64,000 nt of DNA, taken from positions 1 through 64,000 of the forward strand of contig PBSM01000041.1 in assembly GCA_002726245.1 (NCBI GenBank), given 5' to 3'. The notes beneath the pieces were generated by a model, which made no database searches, had not been told where the DNA came from, and was given only the letters and a program-made list of their open reading frames with translations. Numbering within the stretch: the first letter of the stretch is position 1; every line of letters starts with the position of its first letter. This DNA is from Planctomycetaceae bacterium (lineage in GTDB: Bacteria; Planctomycetota; Planctomycetia; Pirellulales; Pirellulaceae). Both the position numbers and the translations under genes were made by a program. Below are positions 175 through 11,257 of the stretch, piece after piece.

Positions 175-1083
175 ATGGATCGTTCTTCGCCCGATTTCAT
201 CAAGCCGATGTTGGCCGAATCTGGCGAGGCCTTTGATTCCGACAAGCACTTGTTCGAGATTAAGTGGGATGGCATTCGCGCGATGGCGTACGTGGAGCAA
301 GGCGTGTACCGACTGATGAGCCGACGCGGTGTTGACGTCACCGAACGCTATCCCGAGTTCGAGCCATTGCGTTCGCTTCCGTCCGGCTGCGTGCTGGACG
401 GGGAAATCGTTGTGCTCGATGCCGACGGCAAACCAAGTTTTCGATCTGTCTTGAGTCGCGCGCAAGCTCGGACGAAGCTGCGATTCCGACACTTGTCACA
501 GGCCACAGCGGCTGATTTCATTGCTTTCGACTTGTTATATCTCGACTACAACGAGTTGATTCGCAAACCGTTGCGCGACCGGCGAGAATCGATGCTCGAA
601 CGCATTGCACCGAAGCTGGGCGAACACATGGCCGTGTCAGACGGAGTGATTGGTCCTGGACGCAGCTTCTTCGACGAGAGTCTTGCCCGCGACCTCGAGG
701 GTATCGTTGCGAAGCGTCTCAACAGCCGCTACTTTCCTGGCAAACGTAGCGATGCCTGGATCAAGGTTCGTAAGAGCAGCAGCGCCCTTTGTGCGATTCT
801 GGGGTTTGTCGATAAAGGTGATGATTTCGAAAGCCTGATCATCGCCACTGAAGATGATGGGGAGTTGCATTGTGTTGGGCGAGTGGGAACAGGATTCGAT
901 GCGGCTCTGCGAGAGCCGTTGAACGATCTGCTGCGGGATGGGCGGTGCGACGCGCCGCTTGTTCCGTGCGACGAGAAGGGGACGTGGGTCATGCCGGGTC
1001 TGTACTGTGTCGTCCGCTACCTGGAATGCACGAGAGACGGCATCTTCCGCGAACCGGTCTTTGAGAAACTGATCACTGATTGA
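175..1083 (+). CDS. ATP-dependent DNA ligase, stand-alone LigD/LigC-type
   Basis: This 302-residue protein should seal nicked DNA using ATP through a covalent lysyl-AMP intermediate. All nucleotidyltransferase motifs are visible: K30 in IKWDGIR (motif I), DGEIVVLD at 75-82 (III), AFDLLYLD at 117-124 (IIIa), EGIVAKR at 175-181 (IV) and WIKVR near 195-199 (V). An OB-fold-like region follows. The length fits a minimal ligase without an N-terminal DNA-binding domain. The ATG at 175 is preferred because GGAAGG lies just upstream and homology begins there; an in-frame extension to 73 would run into the repeat. It heads a three-gene unit with an unknown protein and LigD, which suggests end-joining repair. 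It probably supplies the ligase activity that the LigD in this operon seems to lack. Confidence 0.92.
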   Translation: MDRSSPDFIKPMLAESGEAFDSDKHLFEIKWDGIRAMAYVEQGVYRLMSRRGVDVTERYPEFEPLRSLPSGCVLDGEIVVLDADGKPSFRSVLSRAQARTKLRFRHLSQATAADFIAFDLLYLDYNELIRKPLRDRRESMLERIAPKLGEHMAVSDGVIGPGRSFFDESLARDLEGIVAKRLNSRYFPGKRSDAWIKVRKSSSALCAILGFVDKGDDFESLIIATEDDGELHCVGRVGTGFDAALREPLNDLLRDGRCDAPLVPCDEKGTWVMPGLYCVVRYLECTRDGIFREPVFEKLITD

Positions 1084-1094
1084 CGAGTAACAGC

Positions 1095-1481
1095 ATGAAC
1101 GCAATTCCAAAACGCGAAGGCGAGAACAAGGCCAGGAACAGCTCGAGCACCAACCTGTTGGTCGATGCGTTGGTTCAGAGCGCCGCGACGTTGGCCGACG
1201 ACGAACCGCGTCGCCTCAGACTCGATCAGCTACGCAGCTCGGCGACGGGCGACTTGAGGTTCACGTGGCAAACACATGACGGACGCGAGGCTGACTTTCG
1301 AATCTACTACGATCGAAGCCAGGATGGCGACATTTCGGGAACGGAGCTCGTGCAGCTTGATTTCCGCGAGCCGACCATTCCCGAACAAGCTCAATATGAG
1401 GCAGAGTTCGAGTCTGAGCTGGACAGCGGCGGAGATCTGTGGTCACGTGTAGCGAGTCGTATCAGGGAGAGAGTGGATTGA
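1095..1481 (+). CDS. Hypothetical protein in the ligase/LigD operon
   Basis: I do not recognise this 128-residue protein. It starts a few bases after the ligase stop; an alternative TTG start at 1080 would overlap that stop by TTGA, allowing translational coupling. The N-terminus is polar and probably disordered. The middle has alternating strand-like segments (FTWQTHDGREADFRIYY) and the C-terminus is acidic and helical (EAEFESELDSGG). There is no signal peptide or membrane segment, so it is likely cytoplasmic. Its place between two DNA-repair genes suggests, by context only, an accessory role in end joining. No Ku gene is present in the window, and this protein does not resemble Ku. Confidence 0.6.
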   Translation: MNAIPKREGENKARNSSSTNLLVDALVQSAATLADDEPRRLRLDQLRSSATGDLRFTWQTHDGREADFRIYYDRSQDGDISGTELVQLDFREPTIPEQAQYEAEFESELDSGGDLWSRVASRIRERVD

Positions 1482-1486
1482 GAGTA

Positions 1487-1634
1487 GGTCACGCTCGCCG
1501 AGCGTGACCTCGAAAACCACTGGTTTTCGTCGGCTGCAGCCACTTTCCTGTTATGCGGCCAGTCACTTCCGGCGTAGGTGACCTACCTGTTATGCCTCTA
1601 GTCACTTTCGGCGAAAGTGACCTACTTGTTATGA
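1487..1634. repeat. Tandem hairpin-repeat array upstream of ligD
   Basis: Three hairpins follow each other: GTCACGCTCGCCGAGCGTGAC, then two units built as AGTCACTTyCGGCGwArGTGACCTAC followed by (C/T)TGTTATG. The last repeat supplies the ATG used by ligD at 1631. No clear Shine-Dalgarno sequence precedes that ATG, and the final stem ends about a dozen bases before it, so the hairpins could affect ligD translation or simply be interspersed repeats. Confidence 0.7.
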
Positions 1635-3688
1635 GCAAAGACATTCGGGCGTACAACAAGAAGCGTGACTTCTCGCAAACGCTCGAACCTCGCTCGCGGA
1701 AGCGACATCGCAAAGCAACCGAGCCAGTCTTTGTCGTGCATCGTCACGAAGCTCGACGTCTGCACTACGACTTGCGACTTGAAGTCGATGGCGCGCTCAA
1801 GTCGTTCGCGGTGCCGAAGGGCTTCTCGTTTGATCCTAAAGACAAGCATCTCGCCGTGCGAACGGAGGATCACCCGCTTGAGTACGAAGACTTCGACGGA
1901 GTGATCCCGCAGGGTCAGTACGGTGCCGGGATGATGACGATCTGGGACCGTGGCCCCTACGAATTGTTAAACGGTCCGTGGGATGCTGCGATTGATGCCG
2001 GCAAGATCGAGTTGCGAATGCGAGGCAGCTTTCTGCGCGGCGAATGGCACATGGTCAAGTTGAAGAAAGAGAAGGACCAGTGGCTCCTGTTCAAATCGCG
2101 CGACGCCTACGCCCGCGAAAAGGGCGACGCGCCTGTGTCGTTGGGATTGCTAAACGCTCGGCGTCAGCCGATGCCACAGCGTTTGAGCCGGATGGAGATC
2201 GGCGACCGAAGCTCTCTGTTTGTCGATCCCGAATGGCTTTACGAGCCGATGCTTCCTGGGCTTCGTTTGTTCGCGGAGAAAAAAGGGAACGCCATCCGCT
2301 TTCGAGGTTCTCGTCAGCGGATCGGCTCCGTGGCAGATCGCGTTGTCGCGGCGCTGGGGGGAACGCGGGCGGAGAATGCGATCATGGATGGCATCTTCGT
2401 CTGTCCCGATGACGAGAACCGTCCGTGTCCCTTGACGCTCGACAGAGCACTGCTCGGTGAGGTATCGAAGCCGATCTTCTACTACGCGTTCGATCTTCTT
2501 TACTACGATGAGTGGGATTTGCGAGACGTTTCTCTCGCTGAGCGAAAGGCTGCCTTGTCGTCGATTCTTCCGAAGCACTCCCTGTTGGTCTATGTCGATC
2601 ACGAACGCAGTCGCGCAGCGGAGTTGTTCGAGACTGCGTCGGCCGTTGGGTTGCGTGGGCTCGTCGCCAAGTCGGCAGCAAGTCCCTATCGGCGTGGTGC
2701 GAGTGACGACTGGCTTTGGATTCCCGCGACACGCACTCCTCGCCGTCCGCGTGGACCACACAAGCGGAAACAGAAGTCCGCGCGGACGCATTCCATCGCG
2801 TTCACGAATCGCAGTAAAGTCTTGTGGCCGCAGGCTGGATACACTAAAGGCGACTTGATCGATTACTACGAGCAGATGGCGGACTGGCTATTGCCTTACT
2901 TGAAAGATCGGCCGCTCAGCTTGAATCGTTTCCCGAACGGAATCGACGGCGGTTCGTTCTTTCAGAAAGAGACTCCCGAGCACGCACCCGATTGGATCGA
3001 GACCGTACTAGTCGAGTCAAAGCATCGCGATGAAGTCGAGACGCGATTCGTCCTTTGTAACGATCGAAGTACGCTGCTTTATCTGGCCAACCAAGCTGCC
3101 ATCGAATTGCATCCTTGGTCGTCGCGCCGCGGGGCGCTCGAATCACCAGACTGGGCGATCTTGGACCTCGATCCGACCACAGGCGACTTCAGCCTTGTGG
3201 TTCGAGTCGCCAGAGCCGCCGAGGAACTTCTCGGCGAACTCGGACTTCGTCCTTATTTGAAGACTTCCGGTGCGAAGGGGCTGCACATTTATATTCCGTT
3301 AGTTGCGGGATACACCTATGAGCAAGTGCGGATGTTTTGCGAAGGAGTTGCGCGCTTGATTGCGATTCGCGAGCCGGCGCTTGCCACGATCGAACGCTCG
3401 AAGCCTCGCCGCGACGGCAAGGTTTACGTTGACTTCCTACAGAATCGTCGCGAGCAAACGGTCGTCGCGCCATATGCGGTGCGCCCTGTACCTCCCGCCA
3501 GCGTTTCGACGCCACTCGCCTGGAACGAACTCTCGGACGATCTGGAGCCTGCTGACTATACGATGACAAGTGCTCCCGCTCGGGTTGCCAATCTCGGCGA
3601 CTTGTTCGCGCCCACACTAGGCGACTCGCAAGACCTGCTGGCGGCCATCGACAAGCTACAGGCCCTGGTAGGCGAAACTCGAAGGTAA
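1631..3688 (+). CDS. ligD: LigD: 3'-phosphoesterase, degenerate ligase module and primase-type polymerase
   Basis: This 685-residue protein has the end-joining LigD modules in the order phosphoesterase, ligase-like, polymerase. The phosphoesterase (about 30-150) keeps its catalytic pattern: HEARRLHYDLRLE with H39, H45, D47, R49, plus EDHP with H81. The polymerase (about 390-685) keeps LDLDP (D512, D514), TSGAKGLHI and the third acidic site in VYVDFLQN. The middle region (about 200-370) aligns with a ligase domain, but motif I reads YEPMLPGLR, so the adenylated lysine is a methionine (207) and the aspartate a proline (209). Motif III is DGIFVCPD, motif IV RGLVAKS and motif V lacks lysine. The module therefore looks catalytically dead, and the separate ligase at 175-1083 probably compensates. 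The ATG at 1631 is chosen because homology starts there; the in-frame extension to 1553 lies in repeats. Confidence 0.93.
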   Translation: MSKDIRAYNKKRDFSQTLEPRSRKRHRKATEPVFVVHRHEARRLHYDLRLEVDGALKSFAVPKGFSFDPKDKHLAVRTEDHPLEYEDFDGVIPQGQYGAGMMTIWDRGPYELLNGPWDAAIDAGKIELRMRGSFLRGEWHMVKLKKEKDQWLLFKSRDAYAREKGDAPVSLGLLNARRQPMPQRLSRMEIGDRSSLFVDPEWLYEPMLPGLRLFAEKKGNAIRFRGSRQRIGSVADRVVAALGGTRAENAIMDGIFVCPDDENRPCPLTLDRALLGEVSKPIFYYAFDLLYYDEWDLRDVSLAERKAALSSILPKHSLLVYVDHERSRAAELFETASAVGLRGLVAKSAASPYRRGASDDWLWIPATRTPRRPRGPHKRKQKSARTHSIAFTNRSKVLWPQAGYTKGDLIDYYEQMADWLLPYLKDRPLSLNRFPNGIDGGSFFQKETPEHAPDWIETVLVESKHRDEVETRFVLCNDRSTLLYLANQAAIELHPWSSRRGALESPDWAILDLDPTTGDFSLVVRVARAAEELLGELGLRPYLKTSGAKGLHIYIPLVAGYTYEQVRMFCEGVARLIAIREPALATIERSKPRRDGKVYVDFLQNRREQTVVAPYAVRPVPPASVSTPLAWNELSDDLEPADYTMTSAPARVANLGDLFAPTLGDSQDLLAAIDKLQALVGETRR

Positions 3689-3842
3689 GGCGAGCGGCAG
3701 TTGATAACGTACCAGTAGGCCGGAACAAGGCTTTGTGCAGTTCCGGCATCGGCGTGACGATTGGCTCATGCCGGAACCGCGAAGACTTGTTCCGGCCTGC
3801 GGATGACATCACTGCTCTTGGTACGTTCTCATCTGCCGCTCG
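3681..3842. repeat. Right copy of ~160-bp inverted repeat flanking the ligase/LigD cassette
   Basis: This is the inverted partner of 1-162. It begins over the ligD stop codon and runs to 3842, leaving 36 bp to the stop of the convergent gene. It has the same internal palindromic layout with two CCGGAACAAG cores, so it may also act as a bidirectional terminator-like structure between ligD and the next gene. Confidence 0.85.
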
Positions 3843-5462: not shown

Positions 5463-8400
5463 CTAGGGATTCGGCAGCGGATCGTTGCGGAAGCGGTTGA
5501 GTCGTTTCTGCAATGACCCGGTTGGACGGAGTTCGACCGCACGCTCCGAGAGCTTAACGGCCTGGTCGCGATCACCGAGATGAAAGTGTACTTCGGCGAG
5601 CGTATCGAGGTAAGAGCCGGTGGCAGGTTCAAGTTCAACCGCTTTCTTGGCATGCTCCAAGGCTAGGTCAAGTTGCCGATGACAACGCGCCGCAGCCCAA
5701 GCCAGATTGTTGTGGAAGGACGCGGAATTCGGGTACTTTTCCACAACGGCTCGGTAATGCTCGACAACCTTCTTGACGACGGCGTCGCCGAGTTCGCGCT
5801 GACCGCCGGCATCCAGTAGCGGCACAAGTTCTTCGACGATCGCGGTGTCGTTCGGCATGGCGTTCAATGCCAAGTCGAACTCGCGCCGCGCGGTGGTCCA
5901 GTCCTCTGCTCTGATCGCGGCTACCGCACGGAACTTGTGAATGAGTCGCGGCATGTTGAGGTAGCTCCTGTCTCCCAAGAACGGGAACGCGATGTGTAGA
6001 GCGTCGAACGAGTATTGCTGCCACTGGTCGGCTGTTCGGCTAGGGTCCCTGGCGAGAAGGTGATCCCCCAACCGCCGCGCGGCGTCGTTCAATTCCCAAG
6101 CCTCAAGGGGAGCAGTCTTGAGCAACAGTTCCCACTGCTCAGCCGCTTCGTTCCGCAGCCCGCGCGATTGGAGTATGACCGACATTGCATGGCGGGTCTT
6201 GCTGTCGAGCGGCAGGCGGTTCGCCTTGTGTTGGAGTTGCCCTCCTCGCTCTTCTTGGCCGATGCGCTTCAATGCATCGCCGGACAAGTACAACGCCCCC
6301 AGTTGGTCGTTGTCGATCAACACGCCGACCGATGTGCTGCGGCTGGTCAGGTAGGAGAGAAGCCGATTCCGCGCGTTTGCGTCTCCTTCGGACGGAATCA
6401 GTTCAGAAATCGTGCCGAGCTTGTCATTCTTGGCGAAGTAGCCGAGCACCTCAGTCGAAGAGAGGACCTGGCCGACCAGCGAGGCCCGTACATTGGCGTC
6501 GCGCTCGGCGACGGCCATCCCGAACACCTTGTCGAATTGATCGGCGGCGATGAGTGCCTTGACCGTCACTTGGTTGTAAAGGATCCGCTGCAGCATTTGG
6601 CGCCGTGCGTTGTCGTCACCTTGCTTAACAACGAGATCCAGCAGCACGACGAATTGCTTCTGTGCGGTCAGATGTTCGATCACCTTGGGAACGACGATCA
6701 ATTCGTCGAGGAAAGCCCCTTCCTTCTGCTTGGCGATCGCCAGCAGTTCGTCGAAGCGTCCCTTCTCCAAGATCAACGTAATGGCGTGTTGGTTCTGGAA
6801 CATCCGCGTCAGGAACTGTTGGCGAGCCGCTTCGTGCTCGGTCTTTGCGTAGTCGAATAGCTCGTCGCGCTCGACGACTTGGTCCAGCACTCCGCCGCCG
6901 TTGATAAAATCGCCGAACATCATCGCGCGGCGCAGATGATCGTCGTCCGCTTCGATCAGCTTGCGGAAAGCGGCGTAATGGCCCGCCTCCATCAACGGCG
7001 ACATCGCCGCGCGGTTGCGAAAGACACCTTGCAGGCAAAGCTGGCGGGTCGGCAGATGTGGTTCGCCTTGCACAAGCTTCAGCAGCAAGTTGAGCTTGCC
7101 TTGGCTCGCCAAATGTTGAGCGACCGCGCTCCCCGTAACCAGGCCGCCGAGGATTCGGCCACGCTACCGATCCGGCAGCTCCTTCGCCAGCGTGAGCATC
7201 GCGTCGAAATGACCTTGGCCAATCAACACGCCGACCGTCTGCTGATTGCCGAGCAGAAAACCAAGCAATTCTTCGCGAACCGGAGCGGCAGCCTCGTGCC
7301 GGACCAGTTGCATCGCCCAGTTTGCTTCTTCCTTGTTCGAGAACAAACTATAAGCACGCGGCGAACGCAACAGCATGGCCACGGTCTTGCTCTGCCAAGC
7401 CTTGTCATCTTCGTCGCGGACCAACCGCCAAATGAGGAGCACACTGTCGGCGTCGGAGAGATAGTACGGGATGTTGTTGCCAGCGAGAAACGCACCCACG
7501 AGCTCGCGCCGGCCATGGGGTTCCTTCTCTTGTTTGGCGAGCTTCACGAGGAGCTCCGCCAACGCTCGTCCTCGGAAGTTGCTGCGACCTGCGGATGAGG
7601 CGACCGCCATACCCAGAAGTTGCCCGCGAGTAGCAGGATCTTTCTCCCGCGAGACAAGTTCTATCAGCCGATCGACGCAGCTTTCCTTGAGTAGCGCCTG
7701 GGCGATGACGGTTGATCGCAACACGCCCTGCAGTACGACACGCCGGGCATCTTCGGCCACGTGTTCGGTGGCAAACTTCATGATCTCGCCGACTTTGCCT
7801 TGCTCGACGAGCTTCTGAGCGGCGGCTGGATTCAATACATCCTGGACAGCAACTGGCCGCGCAACCTCTTGTTCGGCTCCGCCTTCAAAGCCGTTAGCAG
7901 CATCGCAAGTTGTCTTTGCTCGATGACCGATCCGATCGCCGGGCTGGCAGATAGAGTGTTCAACATCTGCGCACGAGCTGCGTCCTGCTTTTCGTTCTCG
8001 ATCAGCGCGATAATCTTCTTCAGTTGCTTCTTCTCGGTGTGGTACTGCAGCACCTTGGGAGAAAACATCAACTGGATCGTGACAGTCCTTCGCCAATCGT
8101 CGTTTTGGTCGGCAGCGACGGCTTCCATCAAGGCATCGATGCGGCTCTGTTCGACAAACTCGCCAATGGCCTTGGGGTGCTGGACGAGTTGGCTGAGCGA
8201 GCCGCGTCGGACTTCCGGTTGCTTCTCCAGCCGAATCAGTCGTTCGGTGGTTGCGTACTGCTCCTTGTCGAGCAACTGCTGGAAGGCGGCTTGTCGTTGC
8301 TGTGGCTGGCCATCGCGAAAGTCGCGGACTAGGCCGGCGATTCCGGGATCAACACCCGGCAGAATGCCATAGTCAAAGTCGCGGAGGATTTTTCGGGCGC

Positions 8401-8629
8401 GAAGCCGGGTCTCGCCGTCGGGGCTCTTCAAAGCCGCTCGCAATTGAGGCTCGGCGGCAAGTCCCTGCTTCCACAGAAGCTGCGAGGCTTTTTTGCGCGT
8501 GGCGAAGTCGCTGCTGGAAAGCTGCTTAATCGCGGCTTGAATCTTCAGCCCGGCGTCCGCCTCGACTCGCTCCTCCGCTTGAGAGATAAAAACTACCGAC
8601 AGTGCGATCGATACCAGACAGGAGGACAT
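5463..8629 (-). pseudogene. Secreted HEAT-like/TPR repeat protein, interrupted by one frameshift and one in-frame TAG
   Basis: Three open stretches (8629-7832, about 7870-7164 and 7163-5463) join into one protein of about 1,050 residues. It starts at ATG 8629, with GAGGGAG upstream and a signal peptide ending near SQAEE. The body is a long array of helical repeats of about 40 residues in the style LIELVSREKDPATRGQLLGM, followed by C-terminal TPRs (ALEHAKKAVELEPATGSYLD). The first two stretches are in different frames and join near 7840-7870. The second and third are in the same frame, separated only by TAG at 7164-7166; the repeat pattern continues directly after it (RGRILGGLVTGS). No catalytic motif is visible. 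The protein would be a periplasmic scaffold. Either the gene is decaying or the sequence has errors. Confidence 0.75.
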
Positions 8630-9096
8630 GGCAACACTCCCTCGCCCCCGAGCGGGGTCGGTACAACGCGAAGAAATCAGCTCCTTTACGAGTGTATCAA
8701 TCCCCCGATCGGTTGTCACATCACGATGGCGACGGTTTCGATCTCGTGCCGAACTGACTGGACAGTGCCACGTCGCGGCGCTATAGCGTAGGCAAGTTCA
8801 CGTCAAGCATCTCGTTTGACCCCAAACCGTAGGCTGCGATTCTCTCGTTTCAGCAGACGCTGTCGAACCAAACGAAGCAATTTTTCTTTGCCGAGGCGTA
8901 CCGTCACGCCGTATCTCGCGGCTGTTCGTCAGGTTATTGCGAGCTCAAATCGGTTTGACAGAAAGTAGGCGCCTCTGTATCCTCCCCGCTCGACATGGCT
9001 GAGGGGCGAACTTTCGGCCAGCGGGCTGATCAGGACGATTGGCCATCCCGCCGCAGATTCCCTACCTTCTCCAGCGCAACACATGGAGGTGCGAGG
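8630..9096. other. Divergent intergenic region
   Basis: This stretch separates the leftward HEAT/TPR gene from the rightward receiver gene and should contain promoters for both. It holds the Shine-Dalgarno GGAGGT just before the TTG at 9097. No gene, RNA or clear repeat was recognised. Confidence 0.4.
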
Positions 9097-9480
9097 TTGA
9101 CTCAACTGTCACCGGAGACTCCGCGCTCAAGGAGCGTCTTGATCGTTGATCCTTCTGACGAAAGTCGTGAAGTTTTGCGCACCGTGCTCGAGCGGCGCGG
9201 AGTTAGTATTCTCGAAGCTCGCCGAGGCGCGGAGGGCTTGAAAATCCTTCAAAACCAGCATCCCGACGTCACCGTCGTTGATCTTGAAGCGGATCAGGAC
9301 GGTTCCGGCTCTCTTGTGATCGCTTACCACAACGCATCGGCAAGCGAAGAGACTTCGCTCGTCATGCTGGGGCGAGTGAGTGCGGCACCAACGTCGCGGG
9401 ATGGCAGCCAAGTGATCTCAAAACCCTACCACTATGGGCCGTTGATCCGTACAATCGAGCAATTGCTGGAACGTCACTGA
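9097..9480 (+). CDS. Single-domain response-regulator receiver protein
   Basis: This protein of about 127 residues is a stand-alone CheY-like receiver. The hydrophobic first strand with its acidic end (SVLIVDPSDESREVLRTVL) is present, the phosphorylatable aspartate lies in VTVVDLEAD, and the conserved lysine in VISKPYHYGPL. The acidic pair after strand 1 is reduced (DPSD rather than DD), so phosphorylation chemistry may be altered. The TTG at 9097 is preferred because GGAGGT precedes it by a few bases; an in-frame reading to 8995 has no family-like sequence. It lies 70 bp upstream of an FHA-GAF histidine kinase, and the two likely form a signalling pair. Confidence 0.8.
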   Translation: MTQLSPETPRSRSVLIVDPSDESREVLRTVLERRGVSILEARRGAEGLKILQNQHPDVTVVDLEADQDGSGSLVIAYHNASASEETSLVMLGRVSAAPTSRDGSQVISKPYHYGPLIRTIEQLLERH

Positions 9481-9550
9481 CGGTATCGCATTCAGCCGTG
9501 GATGCGTGGCTGTCGCTTCGGCGTAGCACTTGGCAGTTTGGACGCGTCGC

Positions 9551-11257
9551 ATGGCTTCTCTGTTTGTGATTCAAGGACGCGACCAAGGCAGGCGGTTCGA
9601 CCTTGAGCAAGAAACCGTCTCGATCGGACGCGACAACGATAACGTCGTCCAATTGCATGACTGCGAAGTCTCCAGAAATCATGCGGAGGTTCGCCGCGCC
9701 GGCGACGGGTACGTCCTTGTCGATCTAAAAAGTTCCAACGGCTGCTTCGTTAATACAACACAGATCGAAGAACAGCCGCTGAGCAGTGGCGACCGTGTGC
9801 AGATCGGCCGGACGTTGATGATCTTCACCGGCGGTGAGGAGGCGTCCTCAATCGGTTTCGCCAGTGAAGTCGATATCGTTGGCCAGGTCTCCAGCGTTGC
9901 TGGCTCGCGGATTGTCAAAGCGATCAGTCACGAAGAGGGCAGCCAGTTGCTGTCACAAGTCGATGCGTCGGAAAGCCCGTGGCTGGCACGTGCGCGCAGC
10001 AATCTGCAGATCATGTACCGCACGGCGCTGGCTGTCAGCCATACGCTTGATATCGATCAGCTCTTGCATCGCATCATGGATCTGATCTTCGAGTGGGTCG
10101 AAGCAGATCGTGGCTGTATCATGTTGGTGGATCGGCAGACAGAAGCATTGTTGCCGAAAGTGAGTTGCAATCGTCGGCAGCGACCTGGGCAAGAGAAAGA
10201 GCGATTGGAGATCAGCCGGACGATCTTGGACTACGTGCTGGACCAGCGCGAAGGTGTCCGAACGAGCGACGCCAAGGAAGATCAACGCTGGGACGCCGCG
10301 GCCAGTATCGTCAAGATGGGAGTCCGAGAAGCAATCTGCGTTCCCATGCAAGGTCGATACGGTATCGTTGGCGTGATCTATATCGATACCTATACGACCC
10401 CCGGCCGCATCATCCAGCGGCACACCGACAAGTTCTCGGACGAGCATTTAAAGCTGATGATCGCGATCGCGCATCAGGCGGCCTTGGCGGTCGAGGACAC
10501 TTCGTATTACTCTGCCATGGTGCAAGCTGAGCGACTGGCGGCGATGGGACAGACGATCGCGACGTTGTCTCATCACGTCAAGAACATCCTGCAGGGGATT
10601 CGCGGCGGCAGTTATTTGATCGAGGAAGGTTTGAAGGGTGAAGACAACGATATCGTGCGAAAAGGTTGGGCGATCGTTGATAAGAACCAAGAGAAGATAT
10701 CCAATCTCGTGATGGACATGCTGACTTTCAGCAAAGACCGCAATCCCGATTTAATGCCATCGGATCTGAACGAGCTGGTGGCGGATGTCGTCGAGTTGAT
10801 GTCCGTACGGGCGAAGGACGCCAAGGTCGCTCTTGAGCTTGAACCAGTCACTTCGATGCCCGAATTCATGTTAGATCCCGAACTGCTCCATCGAGCCATC
10901 TTGAATGTGGTGACCAACGCGATCGACGCCTGCGAGCATTCCGGATCGGGCAAGGTCATTGTTTCGACCAGCCTGAGCGACGACACCGAGTCGCTACAGA
11001 TCATCGTGGCCGATAATGGTGGTGGAATCGACGAAGAGGATGTCAAGAGAATCTTCTCTGTTTTCGAGTCTCGCAAAGGAGCTCGGGGAACCGGCTTGGG
11101 GTTGCCGGTGAGTCAGAAGATCTTCCGCGAACATGGAGGCGACATCCTCGTGGAGAGCACGCTCGGTGAAGGCAGTCGTTTCATCCTCACACTCCCGGCA
11201 GTCGCTCCCTCCGCCAAGCCGCCATCTGATACGCTGGCAGGCATGAAGTTCGAGTAG
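9551..11257 (+). CDS. FHA-GAF sensor histidine kinase
   Basis: This 568-residue cytoplasmic sensor kinase begins with an FHA domain (1-95: GRDNDNVVQ, SRNHAEVR, SSNGCFVN), which binds phosphothreonine peptides. A GAF domain follows (about 150-335: GCIMLVDRQTEALLPKVS to AIAHQAALAVED). The dimerisation/phosphoacceptor region has ATLSHHVKNILQG, a planctomycete-style H-box with histidine where E or D usually follows. The ATPase domain has N box (ILNVVTNAIDAC), G1 (VADNGGGID) and G2 (GTGLGLPVSQ). There are no membrane segments. The start is ATG 9551, at the FHA boundary. The FHA domain suggests crosstalk with Ser/Thr kinases. The upstream receiver protein is the likely partner. Confidence 0.92.
   Translation: MASLFVIQGRDQGRRFDLEQETVSIGRDNDNVVQLHDCEVSRNHAEVRRAGDGYVLVDLKSSNGCFVNTTQIEEQPLSSGDRVQIGRTLMIFTGGEEASSIGFASEVDIVGQVSSVAGSRIVKAISHEEGSQLLSQVDASESPWLARARSNLQIMYRTALAVSHTLDIDQLLHRIMDLIFEWVEADRGCIMLVDRQTEALLPKVSCNRRQRPGQEKERLEISRTILDYVLDQREGVRTSDAKEDQRWDAAASIVKMGVREAICVPMQGRYGIVGVIYIDTYTTPGRIIQRHTDKFSDEHLKLMIAIAHQAALAVEDTSYYSAMVQAERLAAMGQTIATLSHHVKNILQGIRGGSYLIEEGLKGEDNDIVRKGWAIVDKNQEKISNLVMDMLTFSKDRNPDLMPSDLNELVADVVELMSVRAKDAKVALELEPVTSMPEFMLDPELLHRAILNVVTNAIDACEHSGSGKVIVSTSLSDDTESLQIIVADNGGGIDEEDVKRIFSVFESRKGARGTGLGLPVSQKIFREHGGDILVESTLGEGSRFILTLPAVAPSAKPPSDTLAGMKFE

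Follow-up and report, generated by a model that had tools for sequence, protein, structure and literature searches.

Bacterial NHEJ is known to rely on two proteins, one of which both processes and seals. The locus considered here, at the start of contig PBSM01000041.1 of a Planctomycetaceae bacterium (the window, i.e. the whole stretch of 64,000 nucleotides that was analysed), encodes a LigD whose ligase-like module appears to have lost its nucleophile, together with a stand-alone ligase. This raises the question of which protein would seal the break and why the defective module has been kept. The features to which the following discussion refers are given below with their positions in the window.

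175..1083, + strand: stand-alone ATP-dependent ligase, 302 aa, NTase and OB domains, motif I EIKWDGIR (K30), motif VI ending before RxDK
1095..1481, + strand: small ORF, 128 aa, between the ligase and LigD, no family match
1631..3688, + strand: LigD with a pseudo-ligase, 685 aa, in the order PE, dead NTase (no OB), POL
1631..2125, + strand: 3'-phosphoesterase (PE) module; H39, H45, D47, R49, H81 and Y85 kept
2165..2731, + strand: NTase domain of the pseudo-ligase, residues 179-367, predicted catalytically dead, no OB after it
2240..2266, + strand: former motif I, YEPMLPGLR, residues 204-212, methionine in place of the lysine nucleophile
2384..2401, + strand: former motif III, MDGIFV (E to I)
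2654..2671, + strand: former motif IV, RGLVAK (E to R)
2711..2725, + strand: former motif V, WLWIP, both lysines gone (W and P in their places)
2732..2788, + strand: short disordered linker, residues 368-386, pLDDT mostly <50, replacing the OB domain of about 100 aa
2789..3619, + strand: primase-polymerase (POL) module, residues 387-663; D512, D514, D601 and H552 kept

The ligase-like module of LigD

The ligase-like region of the window LigD is matched by the Pfam family DNA_ligase_A_M (residues 205-362, 42.5 bits), and on TIGR02779, which describes the active ligase domain, the protein scores 91.5 bits, below the cut-off of 227.75. An initial annotation made from the DNA letters had read the motif I lysine as replaced by methionine and the aspartate by proline, and this was confirmed in a motif alignment of the dead LigDs with 12 stand-alone ligases and 12 canonical LigDs, in which M207/208 (nt 2249-2251) takes the place of the lysine in the FEIKWDGIR of the active ligase. 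The lysine is lost in all 13 full-length dead LigDs, its replacement varying by species (M, R, E, G, S or D), and the motif Ia arginine falls in an alignment gap in the window protein. The reported degradation of motifs III to V also held, both for the window copy (MDGIFV, RGLVAK, WLWIP) and for the same catalytic positions of all 13, where the glutamates of motifs III and IV and the first of the two motif V lysines have disappeared without exception; at the site of the second, one copy alone has a basic residue (R). Positions of structural importance, namely the motif I glycine and arginine, the motif III D-G and the motif IIIa F-D, are kept in 13 of 13, and the same applies to the tyrosine that follows motif IV and to the tryptophan of motif V. 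Since the same losses recur in 13 full-length copies with open frames, sequencing error, chance and a private pseudogene were ruled out.

Beyond what the initial annotation had described, the whole OB domain has been lost. DNA_ligase_A_C is absent from the window LigD with both Pfam and NCBIfam profiles, and in all 13 copies the NTase is followed by a short variable linker and then POL, at the place where live LigDs have about 100 OB residues. Another lysine in the AMP pocket, named beforehand as the observation that would speak against a dead module, did not appear: the alignment holds no new lysine specific to the dead clade, and its only Lys-rich columns (217, 306 and 347) are Lys/Arg in live ligases too. 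In MtLigD, the lysine-to-methionine exchange that the window shows naturally has been engineered as K481M to prevent formation of the LIG-AMP intermediate, and neither the E613A nor the K637A enzyme sealed nicks;(PMC8656161) these published mutants at matching positions agree with the predicted loss of catalysis in the window LigD. Judged from its residues, the former ligase module is predicted to be incapable of adenylylation and of coordinating the catalytic metal.

The flanking modules are recognized by Pfam as LigD_N (residues 37-143) and LigD_Prim-Pol (residues 405-659), and the window LigD scores 193 bits on TIGR02777 for PE (cut-off 144) and 264.5 bits on TIGR02778 for POL (cut-off 214.7). 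The metal and phosphate site of PE (H39, H45, D47, R49, H81, Y85), for which the reference residues in P. aeruginosa LigD are His42/His48/Asp50/Arg52/His84/Tyr88,(PMC8656161) is intact in 13 of the 13 dead-ligase LigDs, and so is the acidic triad of POL (D512, D514, D601).

Origin and conservation of the dead clade

The 13 full-length dead LigDs comprise 12 from Planctomycetota, the window included, and one from Krumholzibacteriota, where it was present in 1 of 80 genomes. A genome-wide scan had returned three full-length relatives with the same architecture, and a search of 392 planctomycetes returned 11 full-length copies (the window and one of the three scan relatives among them) and one truncated copy; the 13 were obtained by adding the copies of loci L034 and L035 to these 11. 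The phylum search around L034 gave the same planctomycetes, which identifies L034 as planctomycete. The genomes with a dead LigD are mostly MAGs, and the planctomycete carriers fall in ten families. Plasmid matches were all below 60% identity, and the listed ones, about 2.4-2.6 kb long, have the length of OB-containing LigDs.

In the tree, the dead NTases form one clade (support 100/99) and the stand-alone ligases another (100/100), and the death of the ligase in LigD has one origin. No near copies came from the family search, the closest pair of relatives sharing 65% protein identity, a distance too great for dN/dS, and conservation was thus judged by identity and by distance ratios. The mean pairwise identity of the NTase is 0.47 in the dead and 0.51 in the live proteins, with a ratio of NTase to PE+POL distance of 1.67 versus 1.36; the linker behind the dead NTase is 16% identical. 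Two arginines, R246 and R264, never vary within the dead clade, unlike in live ligase domains. The alignment and structure prediction that the initial annotation had suggested for the middle region agree in that the catalytic residues are lost and the NTase fold is kept: the AlphaFold model of the dead NTase has a pLDDT of about 90 and superposes on the NTase of the MtLigD ligase (6nhz) with a Z of 21.4 over 183 aligned residues at 2.3 Å. The dead NTase has been retained as a folded, conserved domain and does not represent the decay of a single gene.

Other searched members of the window's own family contained no full-length dead LigD, so that the window lineage may have received its ligase and LigD genes horizontally. 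The 128-aa ORF at 1095-1481 is absent from the loci of the relatives. As separate features of the locus, the ligase-LigD segment is flanked by a dispersed repeat of 156 bp that has 79 matches across the window's genome, its copies at 1-156 and 3686-3841 being inverted (96%), and a 39-bp tandem direct repeat with GTCAC-type palindromes occupies 1483-1626, just upstream of LigD.

The stand-alone ligase and its neighbourhood

The stand-alone ligase of the window matches DNA_ligase_A_M with 121.7 bits and DNA_ligase_A_C (PF04679) with 54.9 bits, and on TIGR02779 it scores 208.9 bits, slightly below the cut-off of 227.75. The statement of the initial annotation that its every motif is intact stood for motifs I, Ia, III, IIIa, IV and V, which together with the OB domain are present in all 12 aligned stand-alone ligases, and failed for motif VI, whose C-terminal RxDK occurs in none of the 14 stand-alone ligases examined; of the 12 canonical LigD ligase domains, ten carry RxDK and two RxDL. 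Although RxDK is absent from 14 of 14, the stand-alone clade retains the OB domain and an LRAPVF-like stretch. Other ATP ligases were reported to be unable to carry out step 1 without motif VI,(PMC4609770) so that the partner ligase's own predicted activity is not assured, and the clade either manages without RxDK or needs help from its partner. Phage stand-alone ligases are 30-35% identical to the window ligase, and in the two that were examined the motif VI arginine is kept and RxDK is absent, which means that a shortened motif VI also exists outside the clade of the window ligase.

The survey of planctomycetes that the initial annotation had called for yielded an exact correspondence, the stand-alone ligase type (270 bits or more, the next best match being 151) and the dead LigD (one copy truncated) occurring in the identical 12 of 392 genomes, with a probability of 4e-23 when calculated as if genomes were independent. 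No second LigD match at threshold was present in these 12. A dead LigD without the stand-alone ligase was sought among the relatives and none was encountered, the ligase being found in 14 of 14 dead-LigD genomes once L034 and L035 are included. In the window's genome, PF01068 matches the window ligase and LigD only, and a further ATP-dependent ligase is absent in 10 of 13 relatives.

In the resolved loci of the relatives, the gene order is Ku, ligase, TPR protein, and LigD lies next to these three; in the canonical LigD loci examined there are Ku and often a TPR protein, and no stand-alone ligase of the partner type. The TPR protein beside the ligase contains a MerR domain; at its N-terminus there is also, in at least 10 of the 14 dead-LigD genomes, a BRCT domain, which scores 18.7 bits in Pfam, just below its cut-off, and whose predicted fold best matches the BRCT of RFC1 and bacterial LigA. 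The gene for this BRCT-MerR-TPR protein lies at 2188-3336 of L034, with related genes in L073, L076, L077, L078, L081 and L089, and canonical LigD loci encode a shorter related protein, MerR-like with TPR and without a clear BRCT. In two genomes (G412 and G216) a contig terminates at LigD, and the ligase is found on a different contig together with its BRCT-MerR-TPR neighbour. Two further planctomycete loci have a different appearance: in L089 (G321, 7368-9126) LigD and Ku are both N-terminally incomplete, as in a deletion or misassembly of the intervening stretch, and in L091 (G127, 7955-10608) PE, LIG and POL each have a gene of their own, the three lying in a row.

In the window's genome, the TPR protein is on contig C317 and Ku is at the end of contig C42, the last 77 bases of which are the first 77 of the window contig. 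Adjacency of Ku and the ligase is therefore likely rather than proven, since this shared end is a dispersed repeat that also terminates contig C17. The Ku gene (L031 1465-2418, in genome G000 on C42) contains an in-frame TAA at codon 195, beyond which the frame is open and Ku-like, and hence the copy of the system in this particular genome may be impaired.

A proposed division of labour in NHEJ and comparison with known systems

The separation of catalysis from scaffold suggested in the initial annotation is strongly supported by the single origin, the conserved dead domain, the exact co-occurrence in 12 of 392 genomes and the conserved neighbourhood; the specific role that it proposed for the pseudo-ligase, a DNA- or partner-binding platform, is a putative one. 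We consider it probable that the locus encodes a split bacterial NHEJ, in which ends would be processed on LigD and sealed in trans by the partner ligase, the better-supported part of this reading, and the pseudo-ligase may be kept as a docking surface. In the proposed sequence of events, Ku would bind the break and LigD would be recruited, with the ends trimmed or filled by PE and POL, following which sealing would be performed by the stand-alone ATP-dependent ligase, whose gene adjoins that of Ku. The Ku core of M. tuberculosis directly binds the LigD ligase domain,(PMC9638933) which makes it most plausible that the retained pseudo-NTase keeps the Ku contact or holds the partner ligase. Its most likely function would accordingly be to anchor LigD to Ku, to the partner ligase or to both, and to hold PE and POL apart, and clamping of the nick is less likely than such docking because the OB domain is lost. 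A more elaborate, four-part version can be put forward tentatively, comprising Ku, the processing enzyme with its pseudo-ligase scaffold as the assembly hub, the motif-VI-truncated ligase, which may be partner-dependent, and the BRCT-MerR-TPR protein as an adaptor; if true, it would parallel the eukaryotic split into Ku, processing enzymes, ligase and scaffold.

The absence of the OB domain, the different replacement of the lysine in each species (M, R, E, G, S, D) and the roughly 1.2 times faster change of the dead domain than of the live one, relative to PE+POL, are also what relaxed selection would produce if, after a second ligase was acquired, the module were decaying and now did no more than separate PE from POL. 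This account nevertheless appears unlikely, given one origin spanning ten planctomycete families and another phylum, an identity of 0.47 near the live 0.51, the invariant structural residues, the clade-specific invariants and the confident fold; a mere spacer would not keep these, and the true linker is only 16% identical. Less probable still is another nucleotide role for the pseudo-NTase, as a non-covalent ATP/AMP sensor or a participant in AMP transfer, as the residues that bind metal and phosphate (the glutamates of motifs III and IV and both lysines of motif V) are gone, with neither an OB domain nor a new conserved lysine present, even though the motif I arginine, the motif III D-G and the motif IIIa phenylalanine are kept in 13 of 13, that arginine and phenylalanine touch the nucleotide in other ligases,(PMC6698739) and MtLigD K481M still binds ATP in the crystal.(PMC8656161) That the stand-alone ligase acts outside NHEJ, e.g. 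in LigC-like excision repair, and lies here by chance would be in line with the work of mycobacterial LigC and Prim-PolC in base excision repair(PMC5663958) and with the ORF of no known family that separates it from LigD in the window; we regard this as very improbable, since the same type is found in exactly the 12 dead-LigD genomes and, where the locus is resolved, adjoins the genes for Ku and the TPR protein.

The preferred reading, namely split NHEJ with sealing in trans, can be compared with several known systems. With the canonical three-domain LigD and Ku (PE-LIG-POL, e.g. in Pseudomonas aeruginosa), the dead LigD shares the domain order, the intact PE and POL sites, the Ku-linked locus and the place of the NTase; it differs in having lost the nucleophile, the catalytic glutamates and lysines and the OB domain, so that sealing must come from another protein. 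The dead-ligase LigD with its partner ligase is a new form of bacterial NHEJ, in which sealing appears to have moved to another protein and a dead, folded module has been kept, fixed over a clade in many planctomycete families and one other phylum. The open literature searched contained no published LigD with a pseudo-ligase, an inactivated ligase domain or BRCT/MerR partners. As a natural separation-of-function mutant, this LigD makes non-catalytic roles of the ligase domain, such as Ku docking and end alignment, directly testable. For mycobacterial LigC and Prim-PolC, which function in base excision repair, neither a pseudo-ligase nor a constant association with Ku is known to us; they do likewise provide a stand-alone LigD-like ligase that works with a separate polymerase.(PMC5663958)

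The nonconventional NHEJ of Streptomyces and Archaeoglobus, with PE, POL and LIG on separate genes,(PMC1378119, PMC7719229) likewise has a separate ligase near Ku; here, in contrast, a dead ligase module stays inside LigD and is conserved over the clade, and surveys that count LIG by HMM-based domain presence (e.g. PMC7719229) could score dead LigDs as conventional NHEJ. DNA ligase IV has been described as a structural factor, both from catalytic mutants of yeast Dnl4(PMC3694833) and from Lig4 synapsis,(PMC10858965) and the yeast NHEJ ligase has a catalysis-independent role while another ligase seals,(PMC3694833) so that there too a non-sealing ligase may organise the break. In that system, however, the non-sealing state is an engineered mutation or an extra role of an active enzyme, whereas in the dead-ligase LigD it is a naturally fixed pseudo-ligase, the resemblance being one of analogy and not of homology.
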